Assembly (NCBI RefSeq): GCF_002797915.1
Contig: NZ_PGTY01000001.1
Location: 806,001-870,000 of the forward strand
Origin: Yoonia maricola
GTDB taxonomy: Bacteria; Pseudomonadota; Alphaproteobacteria; Rhodobacterales; Rhodobacteraceae
Direction: 5' to 3'
DNA length: 64,000 nucleotides
The position numbers and the translations under genes were made by a program. The notes beneath the pieces are model-generated. The model had not been told where the DNA came from and made no database searches. It saw nothing but the letters and a program-made list of their open reading frames with translations. This document shows, piece by piece, positions 15,973 to 26,772 of this stretch (positions are counted from its first letter, which is position 1; the number at the start of each line of letters is the position of its first letter).

Positions 15973-16879
15973 AACCGCCCAAGGGGTCTTTACCATCGCT
16001 GTCACACCCTTCCTATCGGATGGCGCTCTGGATTGGGACAGCATCGACCGCATGGTCGATTTCTATATCGAAAAAGGGGCAACGGGCCTGACAATCCTCG
16101 GCATGATGGGCGAGGCAGGCAAGCTGATGGCACAAGAATCCATCGCAGTGGTCAAGCGGGTCACGGCGCGCAGCACGGTCCCGATCGTTGTAGGTGTCTC
16201 AGCCCCCGGCTTTGCTGCGATGAAGACCCTCAGCGATGCGGCGATGGAACTCGGGGCGGCAGGCTTGATGGTCGCCCCACCCGGTAGCCTGAAAACCGAC
16301 GACCAGATCGTGGCCTACTACCACAACACCGCCGAGGTACTGGGAGACGCGCCTTTCGTGCTGCAGGACTTTCCGCTGGTCACAAATGTGGTGATCCCCA
16401 CCAAGGTCATCCTGCAAGTGGTAGAGGATTGCCCAACTTGTGTAATGCTCAAACACGAGGATTGGCCAGGGCTGGAGAAAATCAGCGCACTGCGCGCCGC
16501 CTCTGATGCTGGCGCGCGGCGCATTTCGATCCTTTGCGGCAATGGCGGGCTTTATCTGCTAGAAGAAATGCTGCGCGGGGCAGATGGGGCAATGACAGGT
16601 TTCGCTTATCCCGAAATGATGGCGCAGGTCGTGGCAGCACTTCGCGGCGGCGATCTGGATCGTGCACGCGATATCTTTGACGCCTACATGCCCATGGTCC
16701 GGTACGAGGCACAGCCGGGACTGGGGTTGGCCATCCGCAAATACACATTGGCACAGCGCGGTGTAATTGCGCATGATACGGTACGCAAACCGGGCACTGT
16801 TTTAAGTGCTGCAAGCAAAGCAGAAGTCAATGCATTGGCGGCACGACAATCCGTGAAACTAAAATCACTTGGTCTATAA
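15962..16879 (+). CDS. DapA-family (dihydrodipicolinate synthase-like) aldolase/lyase
   Basis: 305 residues of the class I aldolase NAL/DHDPS fold. Lys in CVMLKHEDWPG is the predicted Schiff-base residue, and LGMMGEAGKL replaces the usual GTTGE loop. In place of the catalytic YNxP Tyr segment it has LQDFPLVTNV, so chemistry differs from true DHDPS. It overlaps the racemase gene and ends the catabolic operon. Its likely role is to cleave or dehydrate a product of the ring-opening enzyme; the substrate is unknown. The gene ends exactly at the border of the tRNA-derived repeat that bounds the island. Confidence 0.82.
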   Translation: MLDETAQGVFTIAVTPFLSDGALDWDSIDRMVDFYIEKGATGLTILGMMGEAGKLMAQESIAVVKRVTARSTVPIVVGVSAPGFAAMKTLSDAAMELGAAGLMVAPPGSLKTDDQIVAYYHNTAEVLGDAPFVLQDFPLVTNVVIPTKVILQVVEDCPTCVMLKHEDWPGLEKISALRAASDAGARRISILCGNGGLYLLEEMLRGADGAMTGFAYPEMMAQVVAALRGGDLDRARDIFDAYMPMVRYEAQPGLGLAIRKYTLAQRGVIAHDTVRKPGTVLSAASKAEVNALAARQSVKLKSLGL

Positions 16880-16926
16880 AATGGCGCACCCGAGAGGATT
16901 CGAGCCTCTGGCCTCCGCCTTCGGAG
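16879..16926 (-). repeat. Distal attachment-site copy (3' part of tRNA-Arg)
   Basis: Matches 26693-26740 at 47 of 48 positions. The single difference (G16904 versus A26718) falls in the T-loop. Beyond 16926 the sequence no longer matches the tRNA, so there is no full tRNA here. It has the same orientation as the intact gene, as expected for attL/attR. Confidence 0.82.
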
Positions 16927-17104
16927 CTGGTTCAAGGAGCCATCCGAGTTATACGATAGAGCATGCTGGAGCACGATAACAGACTGAAATAAAATGCTTT
17001 TTAGAATCAAAACTCCGAAGTCCCTATCCCAGAACACGCCTTAATTTCCTTCCGCGTGCTTGCGTGGTGCTTACTCAAAATCGGGGCTTCCGAGGGATGG
17101 GAGC

Positions 17105-17545
17105 ATGACCAAACTGACCAAACGGTTTGTAGAGGCAGTCGAGCCGCAGAGCAAAGGTCACGTCGTCTGGGACGACGAGCTGCCGGGTTTCGGTCTTCGT
17201 GACTATTCCTCAGGAAAACGAAGCTACCTAATTCAGCATAGAGTGAAAGGTCGCTTGCCGCGCTACACGATCGGAATCTATGGCGTTTGGACACCCAAGA
17301 CCACTCTTCGCAAAGCGAAGGCATTGCTTGGCCAGGTTACTCAGGAAGAATATCCTGCTGCCGAAAGAGAAGAGGAACGCCGTGCGGTGACCGTGGGCGA
17401 AGTACATTGCCGACATGGAAGCAGGCCTTGTTCTCGGGAAAGGCGGCCACCGGACGAAAGCGGCTACCGTCGCGACCGACTTCGGTCGCAATCGCTGCCA
17501 AAGGGGGCGTTCAACCTACCGGATACGATCATGGGTTTTCGTTGA
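17105..17545 (+). pseudogene. Tyrosine-type phage integrase remnant (frameshifted, truncated)
   Basis: ATG 17105 follows a purine-rich ribosome site. The first roughly 95 residues (MTKLTKRFVEAVEP, VWDDELPGFGLR, GVWTPKTTLRKAKALLGQV) are the DUF4102 arm-binding N-terminus of P4-type integrases. After about TVGEV near 17400 the conserved reading moves to the next frame, which reads YIADMEAGLVLGKGG and KAATVATDFGR, again integrase-like, and then ends. The catalytic domain with the R-H-R-Y residues is missing. The gene is therefore a relic. Its place next to the distal attachment repeat supports an integration event at tRNA-Arg. Confidence 0.8.
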
Positions 17546-17554
17546 AAACGCCTG

Positions 17555-18169
17555 CTAGCTTTTCGGTTGGTTCAGGCTTCTGTCGGTCCTGAGCGCCGAT
17601 GTATCCAGCCGCCGCGAGGCCGGTGTTCCGGGCACCAGCAGTTCGGCCTTGCGGTAGTACGCACGCAATTCATGTTTAGACATGCCGAGGGCTTTGCGTG
17701 CTGCACCGACCGTCATGGACTGCCAAGGCTCATCCTCCAAAGGGATCAGATGCAGGTCTTTGCCCGCCAGATTATCGACGGCATATCCGACACCCAAACG
17801 GTAAGAGGCGATATGCGCCTCTTCAAAACGCCAGTGCTTCGGATAGTCGGTTGTCGAGACGCGAATAAAGGTATCGACATGTTCGTTCGTAATGTCCGAT
17901 GCAGCGCCCATCGTCACACCGATGATAAAAGCCTCGTCTTGGACATGAAGACCACGCCCCAGCAAGACATGAATGCAATCATGACGGTTCAGATGGATGG
18001 CACCGGGCAGTGCATCCGGGCTTTCGGGGTTCTCGTATTTCTTGATAATCTCTGGCACGTCTTCTGCGTTGGCTGCCGGCAAGGTGGCCAGAACCTCAGC
18101 GAGGGTCATGTCATCTGTATCAAGGCCGGGGTTCCATTCTTCCCAGTTCAGATCAATGCGACGTCCCAT
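17555..18169 (-). CDS. Coq4-like protein with HDxxH-x11-E motif
   Basis: 204 residues from ATG 18169. The segment HDCIH (His63, Asp64, His67) followed by Glu79 reproduces the HDxxH-x11-E metal site known in COQ4. Next come a hydrophobic FIIGVTMGAAS stretch and a mixed helical C-terminus. COQ4 acts in ubiquinone synthesis, but overall similarity here appears limited and no ubiquinone genes are nearby. It is the last gene of a five-gene leftward cluster, 1 nt after the vWA gene. No signal peptide is visible, so it is presumably cytoplasmic. Metal binding is a reasonable inference; the reaction is unknown. Confidence 0.6.
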   Translation of the reverse strand: MGRRIDLNWEEWNPGLDTDDMTLAEVLATLPAANAEDVPEIIKKYENPESPDALPGAIHLNRHDCIHVLLGRGLHVQDEAFIIGVTMGAASDITNEHVDTFIRVSTTDYPKHWRFEEAHIASYRLGVGYAVDNLAGKDLHLIPLEDEPWQSMTVGAARKALGMSKHELRAYYRKAELLVPGTPASRRLDTSALRTDRSLNQPKS

Positions 18170-18170
18170 G

Positions 18171-18917
18171 TTACTCGTCTCCGAATGCTGTAATGGCAGA
18201 AAAGCTCTGTTCTTCGGCGATTGCATTGCGCAGAGCGTCAGCCAGACCTGTAATGTCGTTGACCGAAACGAAGGCCGCCAGATCGGGGCGCGCCAACACA
18301 TGCCCACCGTCGATCCCCACGCCAATTGTAGCAATCTGGATTGGTGTCTGACGCGCAATATCTTCGATTTCGGACCGCAGGCGATCCCCATCGTCCGCAG
18401 CCCCGTCCGTTGTAACCAATATGCGGTAGGTGCCAAAACTTCCCACGCGTGCTGCTTCGCCCGCCAAACCCTCACGCGCGGTTTGCAACGCCTTGGTCAA
18501 CGGGGTAGAGCCATCGCTGAAAACACGCGACAAAGGTTCGGGCAACGCGCTGCGCGCCTCGGCCACAGGCATAAACGGCAGGATCAGACCATCGTTGAGT
18601 GCAATAACAGCAACCTGATCTTGCGGGTCCATTGCATCAATGGCCGTGAGCACGGCTGCTTTCGCAGGCGTGATGTCATCACCCATTGAACCGGAATCGT
18701 CCAGAACGATGGCTGTATATACTCTGTTGGGGTCTGGCTGCGCCTCAATCTCATCGGCCTGGCTGCCCGGCCATGCGGAAATCGCGGTCCAGTCAGGGGC
18801 CACTGGTTGGTTGCCCCCACCATTGGACGTGTCGTCAAGAAGGCCAAACTGGCTAAGGACCACAAGGCCGATCGCGCCAAATATGACAAGGTTCGCTGTC
18901 TTGTTCAGTCGTGCCAT
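18171..18917 (-). CDS. Membrane-anchored von Willebrand factor A domain protein
   Basis: 248 residues. One N-terminal helix (about residues 8-26, LVIFGAIGLVVLSQFGLL) anchors it, leaving the vWA domain (about 65-240) outside the cytoplasm. The metal-ion-dependent adhesion site is intact: Asp73, Ser75 and Ser77 in DDSGSMGDD, a Thr in STPLTKAL, and an Asp in VTTDGAADDG. vWA domains bind partner proteins through Mg2+. It lies 9 bp after the SBP/OmpA gene in the same direction, so its ligand may be a product of this cluster. The exact role is not known. Confidence 0.88.
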   Translation of the reverse strand: MARLNKTANLVIFGAIGLVVLSQFGLLDDTSNGGGNQPVAPDWTAISAWPGSQADEIEAQPDPNRVYTAIVLDDSGSMGDDITPAKAAVLTAIDAMDPQDQVAVIALNDGLILPFMPVAEARSALPEPLSRVFSDGSTPLTKALQTAREGLAGEAARVGSFGTYRILVTTDGAADDGDRLRSEIEDIARQTPIQIATIGVGIDGGHVLARPDLAAFVSVNDITGLADALRNAIAEEQSFSAITAFGDE

Positions 18918-18926
18918 TGCAGCCCC

Positions 18927-20615
18927 CTACTGGAGTGGCGCGAAGGTTGTGGCCTCCGCTTGTACGGTCAGAACACGGAAAACAACGCGCATGTTTTCAC
19001 GCCACTGCGCTTCGGTCTGGGGCGGGTCATGGCGCGGGCTGGTGATGCCAACACCGTCCACCGTGAACTGGTCGCGGTTCATCCGTAGATCTGTGTCGCC
19101 TGCATAACTATTGAGTGCATCAACAACGGCGATCGCCCGGTCAAGCGACAGGTTTTGCGCCGATGTGCGGATTGCGCGCAACTCGGTGTTATCGGCCCCG
19201 TCCTGCTCTCGCTGCAAAAAGTAAAGCGGGTCGGAATGCCCTTCCACAGTGATGATCGCGCCCGAGTAGGTTGAGGCCAATCGCAGAATTTCCTGAAAGT
19301 CAGCCTCATAAAGAGCGACTGGGAATTCAGTCGAATCCGGTGCAAAGAACACCTCAAAGTCGATCCGGGTGTTTGCGTCCAACTGACCTGTCCGCCGCAA
19401 GGTGCGCACCGCAGCGGCGGCAGCCTCTGGATCGAAGGCTGCAATCTGGCGTGCATCCAGATTGCTCAACCCGTCTGTCAGCGCGGTATAATCCCAACCG
19501 GCGGTTGCCAACCGGGCCGGTGCATTGATACGGCCCGCCCCGCGCAAGGCGATGTTGACCTCTTCCAGCAAGACATCAAAGCGACGCGCCTCATTGGGGT
19601 CTGCAAAGTGCTGCGCATTGCCTGACCAACCATCGGTGATCGCATCCTGCCACAGAAAGACACCTTCCTCATCGGGCAGACCGCCCAAGAACTCTTGCGC
19701 CATCAGTGCCGCCATTTGCGCGCGGCGCGGGTCGCCTTCGTTGGCCATAAAGCCGCGCATTTCCTCTTCGGCGCGGAAGAGGATGTTCACCATTTCAGCG
19801 ATCTGATCGCGATTGGCGTCAAAGTAATCTGCGCGCACCGCGATATAATCACCGATGACCGAAGCAGCCTCTTGGGTGGAAATCAGGATGGATGCACCGC
19901 GCACAGACCCTTCTGCACCGGTACCCACCGTGCCGTCTGAGGTCAGGAAACGGGCATCAGGCAGGATGACGGCCGCGGCATCTGCGCGCCCATCGGCCAA
20001 AGCAGCCGAGGGCGTATCCCCGTCGCCGGTCAGATCAGCGGTCCAGACAATTTCGACGTCCTCAAAGCTCAAGCCGCCGTCTGCCAGAATACGTCCGACG
20101 AAATCAACATGCGGACCGTTGGCTTGGATCGCGATACGCTGACCAGCGAGATCACCGATCTGGCGAACGCCTTCGCCACCAACGATGCCGTCACCAGCGG
20201 AAAACGAATGCTTGTAAATCACGATCTGTTCGGTGCGTGGATCATCCTCGGTCACTGGCGCGGCTGCGGCCAGCATCCCAAGCGTACCGCGCAGATAAGG
20301 TGTTTCGCACGCGAGATAGGCTTCTAACTGTGCCTCAAAGTTGTCCTCAACCTGCAATGCAAGCGACAGACCGGCATCGCCCAGCAACCCGCCATTGGGC
20401 GACAGCGACGCACCATTTGCCCATGCAACCACACCATCAGCGCCCCATGCGATCAAAGGCATGTCCGCGTTCCAGCCGGACCGGCACTCCCGCACATCGG
20501 AGGTGACGGTTTGAACCAAAGGATCACCGGGGTTCGCCTGCACCGCAACAGGCAGCCCGAGCACAGTCAAAATGGCAATTGATAAAGCTCTTCCAAGCAT
20601 GAGTGATCCTTTCAA
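18927..20615 (-). CDS. Periplasmic substrate-binding-like protein fused to an OmpA peptidoglycan-binding domain
   Basis: 562 residues. A signal peptide (MLGRALSIAILTVLGLPVAVQA, after a short leader) is followed by a two-lobed solute-binding-like region (residues about 30-400; RIAIQANGPHVDFVGRIL and DGRADAAAVILPD resemble the NMT1/PstS class). The C-terminal OmpA-like domain (about 420-545) has VEGHSDP, NLSLDRAIAVVDAL and a final RVVFRVLTV strand. Such a protein could bind a small ligand while held on peptidoglycan. No ABC transporter genes are adjacent, so signalling rather than uptake is possible. It lies centrally in the five-gene envelope cluster. Confidence 0.82.
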   Translation of the reverse strand: MKGSLMLGRALSIAILTVLGLPVAVQANPGDPLVQTVTSDVRECRSGWNADMPLIAWGADGVVAWANGASLSPNGGLLGDAGLSLALQVEDNFEAQLEAYLACETPYLRGTLGMLAAAAPVTEDDPRTEQIVIYKHSFSAGDGIVGGEGVRQIGDLAGQRIAIQANGPHVDFVGRILADGGLSFEDVEIVWTADLTGDGDTPSAALADGRADAAAVILPDARFLTSDGTVGTGAEGSVRGASILISTQEAASVIGDYIAVRADYFDANRDQIAEMVNILFRAEEEMRGFMANEGDPRRAQMAALMAQEFLGGLPDEEGVFLWQDAITDGWSGNAQHFADPNEARRFDVLLEEVNIALRGAGRINAPARLATAGWDYTALTDGLSNLDARQIAAFDPEAAAAAVRTLRRTGQLDANTRIDFEVFFAPDSTEFPVALYEADFQEILRLASTYSGAIITVEGHSDPLYFLQREQDGADNTELRAIRTSAQNLSLDRAIAVVDALNSYAGDTDLRMNRDQFTVDGVGITSPRHDPPQTEAQWRENMRVVFRVLTVQAEATTFAPLQ

Positions 20616-20618
20616 GAC

Positions 20619-21278
20619 TTAAGCACTGCGTCGTTTCAGTAGCATTTCTGCGGTCGCAGAGGAGACATCCACCTGCCGCACCAACCGGTCTGCAAGCCGA
20701 TTTTCGTTATGATCAAAGGCGTCTTCAAGTGCGCTCAACGCCGCATCTACCCTGTCCCTGCTTTGCGCAATCTGTGGGGCGTTTATGTCGTCCTGCCCAC
20801 GTTTGCGCAGGCTGGCATGGCTGAGCACCGCCTCTTCTATCAGTTCAGACCGCACTAAAGCCTGCCGATGCACATCAAGCGCATCAGGATGATAAAACAA
20901 ATCACGTGCAATGTCGTCCAGCCGGTCGGCCATGTCTCTCGTGCGTCGATCCAAGGGAGCCGCAAACAATGCAGCGCCATTGCGCAATCGGTCTGCGCGC
21001 GCATGTGCAGAGGTCATCGCATCAAGCACATTTTCGCTTCTAAGCTCTGACATCTTGTGCCGCTGCGCGAAGGCATGGCGTAACCGCTCCGCGTCGGTCC
21101 AGATCCAACCAGCCGGGGCCATCATGGTTAATGATAAGGTCAACGTGCCCGCAATCAGCGCTGCCGCAACCGCTGCAAATCCGTCAAATGGCAACGGCAG
21201 GCGCATGAAGATGCCAAAAATCACAGCCAAAACAGCCACAATCGTTGCAACCACCCAAGGGAACCGCACAGGCTTCAA
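20619..21278 (-). CDS. Two-TM coiled-coil protein, possibly XpaC-like
   Basis: 219 residues starting at TTG 21278 in a TTGA overlap with the upstream OmpA-like gene. Two hydrophobic helices (about residues 8-26 and 30-55) are followed by a charged helical cytoplasmic region with DRLDDIARDLFYHPDALDVHR and heptad-like Leu spacing. The layout recalls XpaC proteins, which are often near TelA and vWA genes, but no decisive motif was recognised and TelA is absent here. Role unknown; the coupled position suggests it works with the OmpA-like and vWA proteins. Confidence 0.6.
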   Translation of the reverse strand: MKPVRFPWVVATIVAVLAVIFGIFMRLPLPFDGFAAVAAALIAGTLTLSLTMMAPAGWIWTDAERLRHAFAQRHKMSELRSENVLDAMTSAHARADRLRNGAALFAAPLDRRTRDMADRLDDIARDLFYHPDALDVHRQALVRSELIEEAVLSHASLRKRGQDDINAPQIAQSRDRVDAALSALEDAFDHNENRLADRLVRQVDVSSATAEMLLKRRSA

Positions 21279-21742
21279 CGACGCACCTGTATCGTAATTT
21301 CCACCCGCGCAAGCTCCGCTTGCCAGGCGCGTTCGGCCACCCCTTCGGACCGCGCCAGCGGTGCAAAGCCCCCAACGCCTGCAAAATCAACGCGCGCCGG
21401 ATCAATGCCAATATCTGTCGCGATATCTGCGGCAAACATCGCCCGCGCCTCGCTGAGTTGCTGATTTGCGGTCGCGTCACCAGAGGTGCCACTATGCCCG
21501 ACAATAACCACACGCATCCGGTCATCGCGCAGCGCATTCAGAAGATATGCCCGCAAACGTTGCTCCTCACCTGTGGCAAGGCTGACGCCTCTGACAAAGC
21601 GAAAGATTTGCGTCTCGGGTGCGGTGACTTGACCGACGGTGGCCAAATAGACCGCTCCACCAGCGACACAGGCACTGCACATCGCAGCCAACAGCGTGCG
21701 GCGCGGTATGCTCGGCGATATGTCATTGGTCTTTTCAGGCAT
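21275..21742 (-). CDS. Small exported OmpA-like domain protein
   Basis: 155 residues from ATG 21742 (an in-frame GTG lies one codon upstream). The N-terminus has an RR pair followed by a hydrophobic stretch (PRRTLLAAMCSACVAGGAV), which fits a Tat or membrane-anchor signal. The rest is one OmpA-like domain: VVIVGHSGTSGD, NQQLSEARAMFAADI and a final EITIQVRR strand. It would bind peptidoglycan in the periplasm. It is the first gene of the five-gene leftward cluster, preceded by a 360-bp gap that must hold the promoter. Confidence 0.75.
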   Translation of the reverse strand: MPEKTNDISPSIPRRTLLAAMCSACVAGGAVYLATVGQVTAPETQIFRFVRGVSLATGEEQRLRAYLLNALRDDRMRVVIVGHSGTSGDATANQQLSEARAMFAADIATDIGIDPARVDFAGVGGFAPLARSEGVAERAWQAELARVEITIQVRR

Positions 21743-21745
21743 CAC

Positions 21746-22102
21746 TGGCTGATCCTACATAGTCTTTGCAATAACTTAGCGAGTTAGAACTAAATGTCAT
21801 AGCCGATAACGTGGCATCGTCCTGAGATTTTGTTGACAGGACATCGACATGCGTATCGAAACACGATTACCCCAATGCTTTCTCGGAAGCTGCCATTCAA
21901 TTAGAGTTAATGGATGGTCGAAAAGTCCGGCTGATCGGCCAAACCGCCGCAAAACCCAATGTCCGGTTCGGGCTGGCACCAGTCATCCGACCAAAACCGT
22001 CAGATGTCGGCAGCGCGCCCATTTTGCATGATGCTGCGGCTTGCTTGAACGACGGCTAACATGACATGAGATCGAAGTCCCCGCCCGAGTCGAATTGCAA
22101 CT
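21746..22102. other. Intergenic region inside the island
   Basis: The 357 bp between two leftward genes contain a short + strand open stretch near 21850-22050 with no clear start, no ribosome site and no recognisable similarity; it may be a gene relic. The promoter of the envelope cluster should lie in 21746-21860, but no confident -35/-10 pair was identified. Confidence 0.4.
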
Positions 22103-23020
22103 TCATTCGAAGAAGCTTGGTTTTGTCGGGTGTAATCGCCGAAGCACCGCCTTGCGCATCGAAATCGCGAGTCGGTCGTGAAAGATCTCAATAGCGCGGC
22201 TTGCCTCTTTATCCGAAAGCCATCCATCATCAATTCTCCAGCGGCGGAAAAACAACCAATCCAATTCGTTTCTCCGTGAGAACTCCAGCGATCGCTGGGC
22301 TTGTTCATGTGATGGGATCTCGCCTAGACGCGCCTTTGGCCCGTACTTTTCGCGGGCTTGGTCGATCATCTCCGCATGCCGGTTTATGAGCGCATCGATG
22401 TCATCATCGGTGATAACAATCAGCTTTGATATCTCGGAGGCAAACTCATCAGGCACAGAGGCGACCGCCTTTTGAACTGAATCCAGAAAACGCTTATCGC
22501 TCGTATAATCTAAAGCCCAACTCTTGGGTGACGTTCGCCATAAGACGAAAACGGCTTCCTTGGTCCACGCACCATCTGCGACTAGACCTAGTTGATCGAG
22601 TAGTCTTTCAACTTCAGATTGGGCTAGCGCAGGACCCAATCCGAAACGCGCAGCAATATTGGGCGTAGCTGGTGGTGGAGCGTCCTTCCTTACCATCACA
22701 AACCCATTACCAATACGACGTGGTAGGACACTTCCATCCTGCAACCTGTATGACAGCTTGTTCTGTTGTGCCGCCAGCCAAAGAACAGAAATGCAGATAT
22801 CGTCCCATCGCGGCAGCGTTTCTGGCCGCTCTGGGTGGTCCTTTGGTATTGCGCCCCACTCAGTTGTGTCCGCAAAGCCTAACTTGACCAAGCTCATGCA
22901 ACCTATCTGATACGCCGTTGAAGCCATATCGTTCCAGCCAGGACGGTCCATAGCTCTAGGCAAATTTCTCGAGAGAAACTCCGCGGCTGCGGATGCCCAT
23001 TCAGGGTAATTATTACCCAT
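22103..23020 (-). CDS. Unrecognised 305-residue cytoplasmic protein
   Basis: I do not recognise the family. The protein is soluble, with no signal peptide or membrane segment. It starts MGNNYPEWASAAAEF, has a Trp-rich segment around residues 170-180 (VLWRTSPKSWALD), a basic helical patch DQAREKYGPKARLGEIPSHEQ, and ends with RKAVLRRLHPTKP. Codon use and lower GC differ from the core genes around the island, consistent with transfer. It is a single gene with no coupled neighbour. A defence-related role is conceivable from its location but nothing in the sequence shows one. Confidence 0.7.
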   Translation of the reverse strand: MGNNYPEWASAAAEFLSRNLPRAMDRPGWNDMASTAYQIGCMSLVKLGFADTTEWGAIPKDHPERPETLPRWDDICISVLWLAAQQNKLSYRLQDGSVLPRRIGNGFVMVRKDAPPPATPNIAARFGLGPALAQSEVERLLDQLGLVADGAWTKEAVFVLWRTSPKSWALDYTSDKRFLDSVQKAVASVPDEFASEISKLIVITDDDIDALINRHAEMIDQAREKYGPKARLGEIPSHEQAQRSLEFSRRNELDWLFFRRWRIDDGWLSDKEASRAIEIFHDRLAISMRKAVLRRLHPTKPSFFE

Positions 23021-23287
23021 ACTGCGTTTAATACTCCGATTGGATCATGCTAAGCTAACGTAAGAGCATCATGAGGGGCAAAAAGGCAAGTTACAACAAA
23101 GCCGCCATTGGCGCAGCCGCAGCAAAAGCGGGCTTCGTCCCATACCGCCGACATTGAGGGCAGATCAGCGCCGCATGATCTTGACTGAATCTTTCAGATG
23201 ATCGGTTGGAACCCAATCTGACCAATGCTGCACATTGCGCGAATGTCCGCGTTACGTCAGTGAAATTAGATTTCGCCGTAACCCCGA
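23021..23287. other. Intergenic region, no gene seen
   Basis: This 267-bp stretch between the orphan gene and arsR shows no ORF with coding character in any frame. It has fragments resembling decayed sequence and no recognised regulatory motif or strong hairpin. Confidence 0.35.
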
Positions 23288-23602
23288 TCATAAATTGCAG
23301 CACTTTTTGAGGCTAGGGCTTCCGTTGCAACAGTCCTCTAACAAGAACGAAACCAATCCTCCAACACGCGGGAAGTTTACGCGATAGATGAGACTGCGTG
23401 ATCGCCGTTCCTTAATAACAAGCTTAGCTTCGGCCAACGCCGCCAAGTGAAACGATGCACGCGACGGGCTTGCTCCGATCCTTTGCGCAATTTCTCCAGC
23501 GTTCATGCCATCTGGCCCCGCTTCGACTAAAGTCCGGATAACTTTTAGTCGATCTGCATTCGCGAGGGCTCCAAACAATATAGCGGCTTCTGCTTCGATC
23601 AT
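23288..23602 (-). CDS. ArsR/SmtB-family repressor with C-terminal vicinal cysteines
   Basis: 104 residues. The winged HTH spans residues about 5-80 (LFGALANADRLKVIRTLVEAGP, GEIAQRIGASPSRASFHLAAL). It lacks the classic CVCDL site of E. coli ArsR in the recognition helix; instead four Cys lie at the end as two CC pairs (91-92 and 101-102), a plausible As(III) or other thiophilic metalloid site. Its start codon abuts a palindromic operator that also covers its ribosome binding site. It is divergent from the DUF6428 gene, with a second identical operator there. Confidence 0.88.
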   Translation of the reverse strand: MIEAEAAILFGALANADRLKVIRTLVEAGPDGMNAGEIAQRIGASPSRASFHLAALAEAKLVIKERRSRSLIYRVNFPRVGGLVSFLLEDCCNGSPSLKKCCNL

Positions 23603-23622
23603 ATTTCAACACCTCTTGAAAT
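23603..23622. promoter_or_regulatory. Predicted ArsR operator 1
   Basis: ATTTCAA-N6-TTGAAAT, perfect 7-bp arms. It lies immediately upstream of the arsR start codon and contains that gene's GAGGTG ribosome site. The right arm supplies TTGAAA, the -35 element (23616-23621) of the rightward promoter whose TATAAT -10 is at 23638-23643, 16 nt away. Confidence 0.75.
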
Positions 23623-23637
23623 AAATAGTGTTGTTCG

Positions 23638-23643
23638 TATAAT
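23638..23643 (+). promoter_or_regulatory. -10 box of the DUF6428 promoter
   Basis: A perfect TATAAT, 16 nt after TTGAAA (23616-23621). Both elements touch or flank the two palindromes, so a bound ArsR repressor would block polymerase. Confidence 0.65.
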
Positions 23644-23663
23644 ATTTCAAGAATCGTTGAAAT
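23644..23663. promoter_or_regulatory. Predicted ArsR operator 2
   Basis: The same ATTTCAA-N6-TTGAAAT palindrome as operator 1 with a different 6-nt centre. It starts directly after the TATAAT -10 box and ends 13 nt before the DUF6428 start codon. Centre-to-centre distance to operator 1 is 41 bp, close to four helical turns. Confidence 0.75.
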
Positions 23664-23676
23664 GAAAGGTTTCGAA

Positions 23677-24207
23677 ATGATTACCTTTGATGAGTTGCTG
23701 AAGCGCCTGCAGAGCCAAGACCCGATTAAGCCCTTGGTTTTTATAACTGCCGATGGCGAAATTGGGGCGGGATATCATGTCACAGAGCTACGGCACTCGA
23801 TATCAAAAGGGATCGATTGTGGAGGAAGTATCGAGACTTGGGAGGACGCAAAGTTGCAACTCCTTGATGGGCCAGGGTCGACGCATATGACCGTGGGCAA
23901 GTTCACAAACATCATTCAGAAAAGCCTGTCCGCTCTGCCTGAGTTGAGAAACACACCCCTCATGGTCGAGTTTGGCCACAATAATGAACAGCTGGTCCTC
24001 ATGTCTTTGCATGGACCGGAAGTTTCGGATGAGACGGTTGCGTTATCTCTTGGCGATGTTCGTGCGGTTTGTAAGCCAGCAGTACGACGCAAACGAGATG
24101 TGGAAGATCAAGGTGGCTGTTGCGGCACTGCTATTCCTTCACCACAAAAATCTTCATGTTGCGACGCGGTGACCGCAACGCAAGATGCGACCGCCTGTTG
24201 CACATAA
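23677..24207 (+). CDS. DUF6428 family protein with periodic CC pairs
   Basis: 176 residues. ATG 23677 is preferred over ATG 23662 because AAAGG (23665-23669) is well placed upstream and because 23662 lies inside operator 2. The N-terminal DUF6428 domain spans about 1-132 (MITFDELLKRLQSQ, ITADGEIGAGYHVTELRH, LVLMSLHGPEVS). The C-terminal tail has three CC pairs at 148-149, 161-162 and 174-175, each 13 residues apart. The family is often found in ars loci of Rhodobacterales; the tail could bind As(III) or a soft metal. No efflux or reductase gene accompanies it. Confidence 0.78.
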   Translation: MITFDELLKRLQSQDPIKPLVFITADGEIGAGYHVTELRHSISKGIDCGGSIETWEDAKLQLLDGPGSTHMTVGKFTNIIQKSLSALPELRNTPLMVEFGHNNEQLVLMSLHGPEVSDETVALSLGDVRAVCKPAVRRKRDVEDQGGCCGTAIPSPQKSSCCDAVTATQDATACCT

Positions 24208-24352
24208 AAGTTCAATTGCCACGTCAACAGACGTTTGTAGGCGACGGCACGACGACAACTTTGTCCCGCCCAGAGGTCGTCGCGGCCGCATGCAGCTTAA
24301 GCCAGGTTTGGGCCCGAAGTGTCTGCTGCCTGTTGTGCTTCCGGCAGATGAG

Positions 24353-24718
24353 CTAAGATGGCTCAAACAGCTCCAATACATTTCCTGATGGATCTTCGCA
24401 GAGTATTTGCTTGCCGCCCGGGCCCTCAGTGACCTCGTTGCGGAATGTTTTTCCTTCTGTTCGCAGCGATGCAACCAGTCCATCGAGATTATCAACGACG
24501 AGAACACATCGATTCCAGCCACCCGGTTCGGGTTTAGTACCATCCGGCATTGGTTTAGCGGCAGACGCTAGTGGGCCAGCCAACCAAAGATCAAGGTCTC
24601 CCCTTCTTACGATGGCCATCGCTGGTCCATATTGTTCGATCAGTTCAAACCCCAGCTGTTCGCAGTAAAAAGACACTGCCTGATCGACATCTGAGACAAT
24701 GTAGCGGAATTGAGACAT
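24353..24718 (-). CDS. VOC (glyoxalase/bleomycin-resistance) family protein
   Basis: 121 residues with the beta-alpha-beta-beta-beta metalloprotein pattern: SQFRYIVSDVDQAVSFYCEQLGFEL in the first module, CVLVVDNLDGLVASLRTEG in the second, and a terminal PGGKQILCEDPSGNVLELFEP. The Glu in VLELFE is a typical metal ligand; the first-module ligand is not a clear His. Activities in the family range from glyoxalase and dioxygenase to drug binding, so none is assigned. It stands alone beside the ArsR locus. Confidence 0.85.
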   Translation of the reverse strand: MSQFRYIVSDVDQAVSFYCEQLGFELIEQYGPAMAIVRRGDLDLWLAGPLASAAKPMPDGTKPEPGGWNRCVLVVDNLDGLVASLRTEGKTFRNEVTEGPGGKQILCEDPSGNVLELFEPS

Positions 24719-25094
24719 AGGTTCTCTTCCTTTGATGCCGTAACCTTAGCACGAACGGCAGCACATGTCCGCGTTGCAGGCTTTGGCCCACCGTTTTGCC
24801 GTGAAAACCTGACAGAAACCTTCAGATTTCCGGTCTAAGCCCAGACTTGCGGGTGCTGCATGATGCGCCAATGTCGGCTTTTCAGGAACAGGCGCATACT
24901 GGCCGGCGTCTGCGACAGACTTGATGAAGGTCTTTGAAACAGCCGACGGAAACTTTGCGCAGTCACGTAGAACACCCAAACAGCGCTTCGGGCAAATAGT
25001 TGATGACGTGTGTGGCAGCACTTGCGGCGACGCCATCGACCGGAGCGGTCGCTCAAACCAAACCATCTCACGTGCATTGAGGAAGGGATTGGAA
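24719..25094. other. Divergent intergenic region, no gene seen
   Basis: These 376 bp separate the leftward VOC gene from the rightward DUF1566 gene. The DUF1566 frame is open upstream to 24921 but the extension (Cys- and Arg-rich, no signal peptide) is unlikely to be translated. Leftward open stretches have no ribosome site or recognisable similarity. A purine-rich ribosome site GGAAGGGA lies at 25081. Confidence 0.4.
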
Positions 25095-26453
25095 ATGATT
25101 GAATCGAAACTGCGAATTCACTTTCCGGCACTGTGTGCTCTGTCGATGTTCTTGTGCGCTCTTGTGCCCTTATCAGCGCAGGCTGAAGCGCAGACACAAG
25201 TTGAAACTCTTCAACTTCGGCTTGCACAGATTTCTGGTGACGTTCAAAGCACCTTTGACATTCCCGACTCGGGACAGACCAGATGCTATTCGAATACAGA
25301 TGAGATCGCCTGCCCAGAGGAAGGCGATGCATTTTTTGGACAAGATGCTCAATACTCAACAAATCCAATGTCATTCACCGACAATGGTGACGGCACCATA
25401 ACGGATAACGTCACGCGCTTAATGTGGGAGCAAGGTATCAACAGCGGAAAGCTACCCTTGGATGGCGCGGTTGAATATTGTGAAAACAGCATGCACGCTG
25501 GGTATGACGATTGGCGTCTGCCAAACATCAAGGAACTATTTTCAATTGATAAATTCGAGACAGGCTGGCCGTACGCCGATCTTGAAAATTTTATTCTTAC
25601 AAGCGATACGCCTGATAAGTCAGAGCAATATTGGTCAAACAACTACTACTTGGCTGGCAGCAACGCACTGGTCAATCGTGACGATATCGCGTTTGGCGTG
25701 AATTTCATATCGGGCCACATCAAGGCTTATCCTGCCTGGTCTGCCGGTGAGCGTGCAAAATACGCCAAATGTGTCAGGGGAGACGAATACGGCATTAATC
25801 GACTTGAGGATAACGGTGATGGAACTGTATCCGATCTTGCCTCTGGGCTGATGTGGCAACAGGCGGACAGCAATGGGATGGACTGGGAAGATGCCCTCGC
25901 CTACTGCGAATCTGCTGACACAGCCGGTTACGATGATTGGCGGCTGCCTGGCATTAAAGAACTCCAGATTCTTGTGGATTATTCAGGATATTTCCCCGCA
26001 ATCGATCCGATGTTCAGCTTCGCAGAGATGATCAATGAAGGCGGAACCACAGACTATGGGTATTACTGGTCCAGTACCACGCATGTCGGCCAAGATGAAT
26101 ATTACGCCGGATGGTATGTCGCATTCGGTATGGCCGTTGGTAAGGACGGGTTAGAATCTCATGGTGCCGGGGCTGTCAGATACGATCAGAAATATGTGGG
26201 CCATCCCGACGCGGAAGAAGTCGATGCAAGTGCAAGAATCCATAATTTCGTCAGATGTACCCGGAGTGAAACTGCCGACACTGCATTGGTAGAGCGACCC
26301 GATTCAGGAAACGGCATTCCTTTTGTTTACGATCTGGCGCTTCCGACCCGGACCTTTGGCCCTAGTGCGGACCTGCCTGGTAACTCTGAAAATCCCCTGC
26401 CTGAAGAGTTTGAAATTGAGGAACCGGTTATTCCGCTTGAACGGATCGAGTAA
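25095..26453 (+). CDS. Secreted DUF1566 (Lcl C-terminal domain) protein with two repeats
   Basis: 452 residues from ATG 25095, supported by a GGAAGG site and a classical signal peptide (residues 1-30, LCALSMFLCALVPLSAQA). Two DUF1566 units follow: about 96-230 (DNGDGTITDN, LMWEQ, GYDDWRLPNIKEL) and about 239-390 (DNGDGTVSDL, LMWQQ, GYDDWRLPGIKEL), each ending with a Cys near an RC or KC. These domains occur in secreted or surface proteins, often with fibrobacter-like or lectin-like folds; their ligand is unknown. It has no coupled partner gene and is the last gene inside the right border of the island. Confidence 0.85.
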   Translation: MIESKLRIHFPALCALSMFLCALVPLSAQAEAQTQVETLQLRLAQISGDVQSTFDIPDSGQTRCYSNTDEIACPEEGDAFFGQDAQYSTNPMSFTDNGDGTITDNVTRLMWEQGINSGKLPLDGAVEYCENSMHAGYDDWRLPNIKELFSIDKFETGWPYADLENFILTSDTPDKSEQYWSNNYYLAGSNALVNRDDIAFGVNFISGHIKAYPAWSAGERAKYAKCVRGDEYGINRLEDNGDGTVSDLASGLMWQQADSNGMDWEDALAYCESADTAGYDDWRLPGIKELQILVDYSGYFPAIDPMFSFAEMINEGGTTDYGYYWSSTTHVGQDEYYAGWYVAFGMAVGKDGLESHGAGAVRYDQKYVGHPDAEEVDASARIHNFVRCTRSETADTALVERPDSGNGIPFVYDLALPTRTFGPSADLPGNSENPLPEEFEIEEPVIPLERIE

Positions 26454-26692
26454 CCCTGGTCGGAGAAATATAGGACCAGTTCTGTGTCAGTCTTTCCTGA
26501 ACTTTTGATGAAGACATCTTCTTACTCTCCGCAGGAGATAACTTTCATGGTGATTGCGCGCGACCGTACGGCGACCGAAATCCGTGGGACGTCACCATGA
26601 TGACCATTTGGGCAGTGAGGCGATCACATAAGCAGCGCGTAAGCACTGGTCCCAAAATCGCTTTGATGCATAAGATACTGATTTATAGATAT

Positions 26693-26740
26693 AAATGGCG
26701 CACCCGAGAGGATTCGAACCTCTGGCCTCCGCCTTCGGAG
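26693..26740 (-). repeat. Proximal attachment-site copy inside tRNA-Arg
   Basis: The tRNA part of the 48-bp direct repeat with 16879-16926. It covers the tRNA from the anticodon loop to the CCA end plus three A residues beyond it, so integration restored a full tRNA gene. Confidence 0.82.
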
Positions 26741-26772
26741 GGCGGCGCTCTATCCAGCTGAGCTACGGGTGC
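26696..26772 (-). tRNA. tRNA-Arg (anticodon CCG)
   Basis: 77 nt read leftward: acceptor GCACCCG/CGGGTGC with G discriminator and encoded CCA, a D-arm with GAGC stem, an anticodon stem CCGCC/GGCGG around the loop CTCCGAA (anticodon CCG, reading CGG), and a T-arm AGAGG-TTCGAAT-CCTCT. All arms pair. Its 3' half is duplicated at the far end of the island, so it served as the integration target. Confidence 0.96.

Follow-up and report, generated by a model that had tools for sequence, protein, structure and literature searches.

Introduction

Among the closest described relatives of the locus studied here are the TelA-XpaC gene pairs and the Ter systems. TelA and XpaC are widespread yet poorly understood. 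TelA-XpaC pairs are known as lmo1966-lmo1967 in Listeria and as XpaC and TelA/YaaN in Bacillus, and PMC12791056 reports that telA disruption in Listeria increases susceptibility to nisin and tellurite. For jumbo phages, Iyer et al. 2021 (PMC7824862) proposed that TelA forms sub-membrane structures and that Ter/TelA proteins act in superinfection exclusion or against other phages. The Ter systems treated there have TelA at the membrane together with TerF, a vWA protein, and are carried by jumbo phages; the text of that paper makes no mention of OmpA, XpaC or Coq4.

The window, i.e. the whole 64,000-nt stretch of Yoonia maricola DNA analysed, carries five adjacent genes that share an XpaC-like two-transmembrane (TM) protein with the TelA-XpaC pairs, and relatives of the cluster on two viral contigs (L034, L035) have the order XpaC-TelA. 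Unlike these pairs, the window cluster lacks TelA and encodes in addition a solute-binding protein (SBP)/OmpA fusion, a vWA protein, a small OmpA protein and a Coq4-like protein. Clusters on the Vibrio plasmids pSEA2 and pIFO15640 (two of six matching records compared) likewise encode an SBP-OmpA protein (34.8% identity over 97% of the query) followed by a vWA protein. They differ by adding a second SBP-OmpA protein, TelA, a TIGR03427 binding protein, a permease and an ATPase, by a TM protein without detectable XpaC similarity and by having no Coq4-like gene. Solute-binding proteins of the SsuA/NMT1 type (3e4r, 2x26) resemble part of the fusion's binding domain in sequence, but the window protein is fused to OmpA and has no cognate transporter in its cluster. 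Coq4 and its Nostoc relatives Alr8543 (6e12) and Npun02000094 (3msq) differ from the fifth gene product, which falls below the PF05019 cut-off and is encoded in an envelope cluster without quinone pathway genes. XpaC is linked here with a binding protein anchored to peptidoglycan, with a vWA protein carrying a MIDAS and with a Coq4-like protein, and sister clusters occur both with and without TelA. The five genes probably constitute a little-known envelope-guarding machine, and such a compact mobile set offers defined partners for tests of TelA and XpaC. No description of the cluster was found in the literature; most subscription papers lay outside the search, so its novelty is provisional.

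The five-gene cluster

An initial annotation, made from sequence alone, had noted five tightly coupled leftward genes, and all five are indeed in place, separated from gene 1 to gene 5 by -4, 18, 9 and 1 nt:

21275..21745, minus strand: gene 1, 156 aa, small protein with an OmpA domain and a single hydrophobic segment (19-37) near the N-terminus
20619..21278, minus strand: gene 2, 219 aa, divergent XpaC resembling PF10112, with hydrophobic segments at 9-27 and 34-52
18927..20600, minus strand: gene 3, NMT1/SsuA-type solute-binding domain and C-terminal OmpA domain (domain matches), 557 aa
18171..18917, minus strand: gene 4, vWA protein, 248 aa, DxSxS (D73, S75, S77) and D171
17555..18169, minus strand: gene 5, 204 aa, Coq4-like protein with the metal motif HDxxHx11E (63-79)

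The products comprise three exported or anchored proteins and one two-TM protein; gene 5 has no hydrophobic segment, and its product is probably cytosolic. Gene 3 starts at an ATG at 20600 and has a hydrophobic, signal-like N-terminus. Its solute-binding domain matches NMT1 PF09084 at 22.9 bits (cut-off 20.5), in agreement with the solute-binding-like domain first noticed, and matches 3e4r over 84 residues (E=3.5e-5). The MIDAS vWA assignment of gene 4 also holds, with VWA_2 PF13519 at 37.9 bits (cut-off 27) and the DxSxS and D171 residues in place behind a hydrophobic N-terminal anchor. DxSxS is kept in all 12 vWA rows and D171 in 7/7 close rows, while a strict TTDG-type pattern occurs in 3/12 rows. 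A crude lipobox pattern fits seven of the 12 rows; gene 4 of the window does not fit.

The OmpA domains of genes 1 and 3 fare differently. Gene 1 matches PF00691 at 34.4 bits (cut-off 27.2), and the C-terminal domain of gene 3 reaches 22.4 bits, under that cut-off. Gene 3 keeps the GHSD and NLSxxR motifs, the Asp and Arg of which belong to the usual peptidoglycan site. Among the fusion homologues listed, GHSD or GHAD occurs in 120/120 and an NLSxxR-type motif in 119/120; for fusions encoded in clusters, GHSD or GHAD is found in 11 of 12 rows, the exception being L022. The small OmpA protein has GHSG instead, with Gly at the Asp position in all eight family members compared. The initial label of peptidoglycan-binding modules fits the fusion, and the small OmpA protein may not bind peptidoglycan. 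Transporter-type clusters encode two SBP-OmpA fusions, and gene 1 compares better with the OmpA domain of the second (hhalign 99.3%) than with that of the first (86.2%); it thus looks like a stripped-down second fusion.

No permease, ATPase or TelA (PF05816) gene was found inside the window cluster, as the initial annotation had stated. Pfam searches of the five genes also revealed no metal pump or reductase domain and no nuclease or other killing domain. Several simpler identities were rejected: chance ORFs because of domains and conservation, a known defence system because PADLOC matches to the cluster are weak (best 14.2 bits), a sortase-linked or Pal-type locus because matches to NCBIfam vWA/OmpA models fall far under their cut-offs, and a plain TelA locus because the cluster holds no TelA.

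XpaC and TelA

Gene 2 begins with a TTG, and beyond its hydrophobic segments the remainder looks helical. It scores 13.7 bits against PF10112, under the cut-off of 29.8; relatives pass at 86.0 (L034) and 39.1 bits (L027), and L022 remains under it at 27.9. An XpaC profile built from four rows (L034, L035, L027 and L004, a locus of the window's own genome) detects gene 2 with E=1.4e-5 (80% in hhalign, over 194 columns) and its orthologues in L026 (7.8e-14) and L020 (7.8e-10), with no significant match to the orthologues in L006-L010. Judged by these profile matches, gene 2 is a divergent XpaC. The resemblance to TelA/XpaC loci that had been noticed at the outset is strengthened by this, one of the five genes itself being of the XpaC type.

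The only TelA match in the window genome lies on another contig (C3), in a separate XpaC-TelA locus. The gene run there (L004 8472-15147) is XpaC-TelA-DUF2927-unknown-SPFH/GYF-unknown-zinc-ribbon-like. TelA likewise occurs elsewhere in the genome in all six TelA-less carriers searched, which weighs little, TelA being present in 133 of 149 family genomes. The TelA on C3 might act in trans on the window cluster, a role with which the data are compatible.

Coq4-like motif and fold of gene 5

The annotation of gene 5 as a Coq4-like metal-binding protein is supported by its HDxxHx11E motif and by its predicted structure, which has a Coq4-type fold. The motif is present in 6/6 cluster rows and in all 119 homologues among those listed of 1952. 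PF05019 gave no match in gene 5 or in the L034 copy, and 16.1 bits in the L027 copy, under the cut-off of 22.9. Profile searches of solved structures with Coq4-like alignments returned no Coq4 entry; fold comparison alone gave Coq4.

Conservation of the five genes

The five genes are a real, repeatedly inherited unit. Genome contigs were scanned, and of 36 matches to the pattern, six contain a gene for a fusion relative. Each of these six loci has all five genes in the order seen in the window, which supports the conserved co-occurrence named as a check in the initial annotation. Identity to the window in these six loci is 74-89% for the fusion and the Coq4-like protein and 39-70% for the other three proteins. 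Together with the window and one further genome (G063, L020), they make up eight distinct same-order loci (judged by length, L021 and L023 are the contigs of L006 and L005, respectively). Another genome (G420, L027) has all five genes in a different order.

The unit is patchily distributed. The Coq4-like gene occurs in 3/149 genomes of the family sample, the same three that encode a close full-length fusion, and in 2/56 genomes of the genus sample. Fusion matches in the family sample number 19, namely the three close ones, one diverged (G025) and 15 partial. The fusion was found in three of 385 class-sample genomes (E up to 1e-20) and two of 398 phylum-sample genomes (E up to 1e-15), the window genome included in both. 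At least 667 relatives of the fusion (8000 candidates scored) are present in the protein database.

Chance or lineage-restricted neighbourhood, with no shared function among the genes, might produce such loci, and the close loci are up to 89% identical and thus not fully independent. However, L027 keeps all five genes in shuffled order, the five genes together with TelA are found on viral contigs, the flanks are hardly shared (antisense ORFs aside, the six loci have one neighbour in common, between L007 and L008) and the genes are patchily present as a block. These observations largely refute a chance neighbourhood, which we regard as hardly credible.

Probable arrival on a genomic island

The cluster is embedded in an island at a tRNA gene, with a repeat at either end:

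16879..26692: genomic island of 9.8 kb that carries genes 1 to 5
16879..16926: attL-like repeat of 48 nt that partly duplicates (98%) the end of the tRNA-Arg gene
17060..17545, plus strand: integrase remnant adjoining attL, Arm-DNA-bind_3 domain alone (30.8 bits, cut-off 27)
26693..26740: attR-like repeat, at the edge of and within tRNA-Arg
26696..26772, minus strand: tRNA-Arg (CCG), the island integration site

A probe made of the two island flanks joined together aligned without interruption (1-380 or 2-380, 77-81% identity), spanning the whole tRNA, in at least five of 55 other genus genomes (G150, G156, G158, G160, G162). The tRNA-end repeats, the integrase remnant and the empty site in relatives indicate that the cluster most likely arrived in the window on the 9.8-kb island. 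No complete TelA locus was found at this place in close relatives; at least five genus relatives have the empty site there. Among the other alphaproteobacterial loci scanned, only L010 has a tRNA nearby.

Other island cargo consists of an ArsR-type regulator, DUF6428 and a glyoxalase-family gene (23288-24718) and an Lcl_C protein. A 305-aa ORF at 22103-23020, also on the island, has no Pfam match. The regulator, DUF6428 and the glyoxalase-family gene, as well as the link to TelA, could point to a cassette for metal, metalloid or oxyanion resistance of the tellurite or arsenic type. Such a cassette appears improbable, given that the other loci lack these neighbours and that the five genes encode neither metal pump nor reductase domains.

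Related clusters on plasmids and large phages

Relatives of the cluster fall into six variants, classified with HMMs built here whose seeds include many of the rows they classify:

Variant (a), window and seven others: OmpA-XpaC-fusion-vWA-Coq4, without TelA
Variant (b), L027: fusion-vWA-OmpA-Coq4-XpaC, without TelA
Variant (c), IMG/VR contigs L034 and L035: fusion-vWA-OmpA-Coq4-XpaC, then TelA
Variant (d), L022 and L026: OmpA-XpaC-fusion-vWA-OpuAC binding protein
Variant (e), L028, L029, L033 and L036: fusion-vWA-second SBP-OmpA-TM protein-TelA-TIGR03427-type binding protein-permease-ATPase, order varying
Variant (f), L037 and the 595-kb phage record LR756511 (L038): as (e), with a coiled-coil protein replacing TelA

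The members of variant (e) are Vibrio plasmids (L028, L029), a same-phylum genome (G592, L033) and a 359-kb viral contig (L036). The OpuAC proteins of variant (d) score 187 (L022) and 226 bits (L026), and the TelA of L034 scores 268 bits. The TIGR03427 binding protein reaches 413.9 bits in Vibrio (cut-off 333.9), with L036 (331.0) and L038 (132.4) under the cut-off. The fusion of L036 (9881-11634) is split across two frames, which might be real or a sequencing error. The coiled-coil protein occupies TelA's place at 15540-16331 in L037 and 18822-19655 in L038 and shows no similarity to TelA. PspA was dropped as its identity, with no match for the L037 protein in Pfam, NCBIfam or PHROGs and none for the L038 protein in NCBIfam or PHROGs. 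The TM protein of these clusters, labelled XpaC2, was rejected as an XpaC homologue for want of sequence support, so the name is a label only. Since neither protein has significant similarity to XpaC or TelA, the analogy within transporter-type clusters is positional.

The lack of TelA noted in the initial annotation does not apply to all of these variants. No TelA was found in the sequence covered around the eight same-order loci, several stretches of which end at contig ends, and TelA is present in the homologous clusters L034, L035, L028, L029, L033 and L036. In trees of the fusion, TelA-less forms group with L034 and L035 (and L036) inside TelA-bearing or coiled-coil forms, with several forks open and the root not fixed. 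TelA was likely lost from the TelA-less clusters, as far as these trees indicate.

The absence of a transporter holds for the window cluster and does not extend to the cluster type as a whole. Variants (e) and (f) make transport the main rival to a guarding role. The fusion could serve an ABC uptake system as its binding protein, tethered to peptidoglycan, and the window copy could be a reduced form that borrows another transporter or only scavenges its ligand. Transporter-type clusters do contain a permease, an ATPase and a third binding protein of the TIGR03427 type, and phage G, Lak-B1 and a 735-kb phage retain the fusion with permease and ATPase. Further support comes from the two diverged clusters with an OpuAC binding protein as fifth gene and from an ABC ATPase about 3 kb beyond the L020 cluster, on the opposite strand. 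Against this, the clusters of the eight same-order loci, L027, L034 and L035 contain no permease or ATPase, and we know of no transport role for vWA, XpaC or Coq4-like proteins. We consider solute capture rather unlikely.

Carriage by viruses varies in how it is documented. Used as query against the phage collection, the window fusion found LR756511 alone; its relatives as queries reached Lak, phage G and 735-kb records at 21-29% identity. Bacillus phage G encodes weaker fusion relatives, gp249 and gp250, near the permease gp243 and the ATPase gp245; the stretch gp243-gp250 (L059 5923-13008) thus holds two NMT1-OmpA fusions, though the phage host is Gram-positive. No vWA or TelA was found in the phage G, Lak-B1 and 735-kb phage stretches, and the Lak paper PMC11165621 was rejected as a TelA source, "TelA" there being an author's name. 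A terminase match exists for two of six viral records (L038, L041) and for none of the records of L034, L035, L036 and L037. For L034 and L035, PHROG matches for three of five proteins tried and tRNA clusters fit a phage. These tRNA clusters, beside the TelA-bearing clusters, comprise two genes in L034 and six in L035, with tRNA-Arg(CCG) directly upstream. The viral nature of L036 and L037 rests on IMG/VR because none of four proteins tried had a PHROG match.

An anti-phage or superinfection-exclusion module of large phages and islands, blocking the entry of rivals at the envelope, would fit the relatives on the 595-kb phage record with its terminase match, on IMG/VR contigs and on phage G, Lak and 735-kb phages, as well as the proposal for Ter/TelA in jumbo phages (PMC7824862). 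The weak PADLOC matches and the lack of nuclease or killing domains in the five genes render it distinctly improbable.

A possible trans-envelope guard

We suggest that the five genes encode a mobile, trans-envelope guard related to TelA/XpaC systems, with a probability of about 0.4. Supporting this reading are the conserved five-gene unit, the same genes with TelA on L034 and L035 (and in L034's order in the TelA-less L027), the XpaC homology, the Coq4-type motif and fold, and the peptidoglycan-site residues kept in the fusion homologues listed. The position of TelA outside the window cluster and the related clusters with permease and ATPase, which point to transport, count against it, as do the purely positional analogy in transporter-type clusters and the lack of a significant XpaC profile match for the orthologues in L006-L010. 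The reports on nisin in Listeria (PMC12791056) and on jumbo phages (PMC7824862) fit a function in envelope protection, and the envelope sensing or repair role first put forward for the cluster is plausible.

For the guard module, we infer complex formation, ligand sensing, membrane protection and a lipid as target of the Coq4-like protein. In the periplasm, the solute-binding domain of the fusion would bind a small ligand, either a signal or a damage product, while its OmpA end would grip peptidoglycan. The anchored vWA protein might join the fusion in a complex by means of a metal-dependent site, and the small OmpA protein might join them. The two-TM XpaC-like protein of the inner membrane could relay the state of this complex to the cytosol, where a TelA-type protein would strengthen or remodel the membrane. 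For the window cluster, TelA might come from the chromosomal XpaC-TelA locus or be dispensable. The Coq4-like metalloprotein may bind or alter a lipid in the cytosol, e.g. a quinone or another polyprenyl, a target carried over by analogy from distant homologues.

The clusters might also represent a hitherto undescribed family of trans-envelope machines. These would be built around SBP/OmpA fusions, with vWA and TelA in fuller forms, and combine interchangeable modules (ABC transporter, Coq4-like protein, OpuAC protein, TelA or coiled-coil protein). Plasmids, a tRNA island and some of the largest bacterial viruses known (phage G, Lak and the 595- and 735-kb phages) would share them. Their task would be to preserve the integrity of the host envelope, which phages would need while a long infection lasts. 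We consider this broader proposal tentative and rather doubtful. The occurrence of relatives on very large phages suggests that envelope machinery has been overlooked in these viruses.

Coq4-like genes outside the cluster

The protein database contains 1952 relatives of the Coq4-like protein, and a tree of these proteins does not separate stand-alone from cluster-linked forms. Gene 5 of the window had no match in the phage collection. Stand-alone Coq4-like genes occur on viral contigs L041-L047, and in L041 and L044 a 947-aa ORF follows them. On a Streptomycetaceae plasmid (L030 5980-8979), a Coq4-like gene is located two genes from an annotated AarF/ABC1/UbiB kinase.
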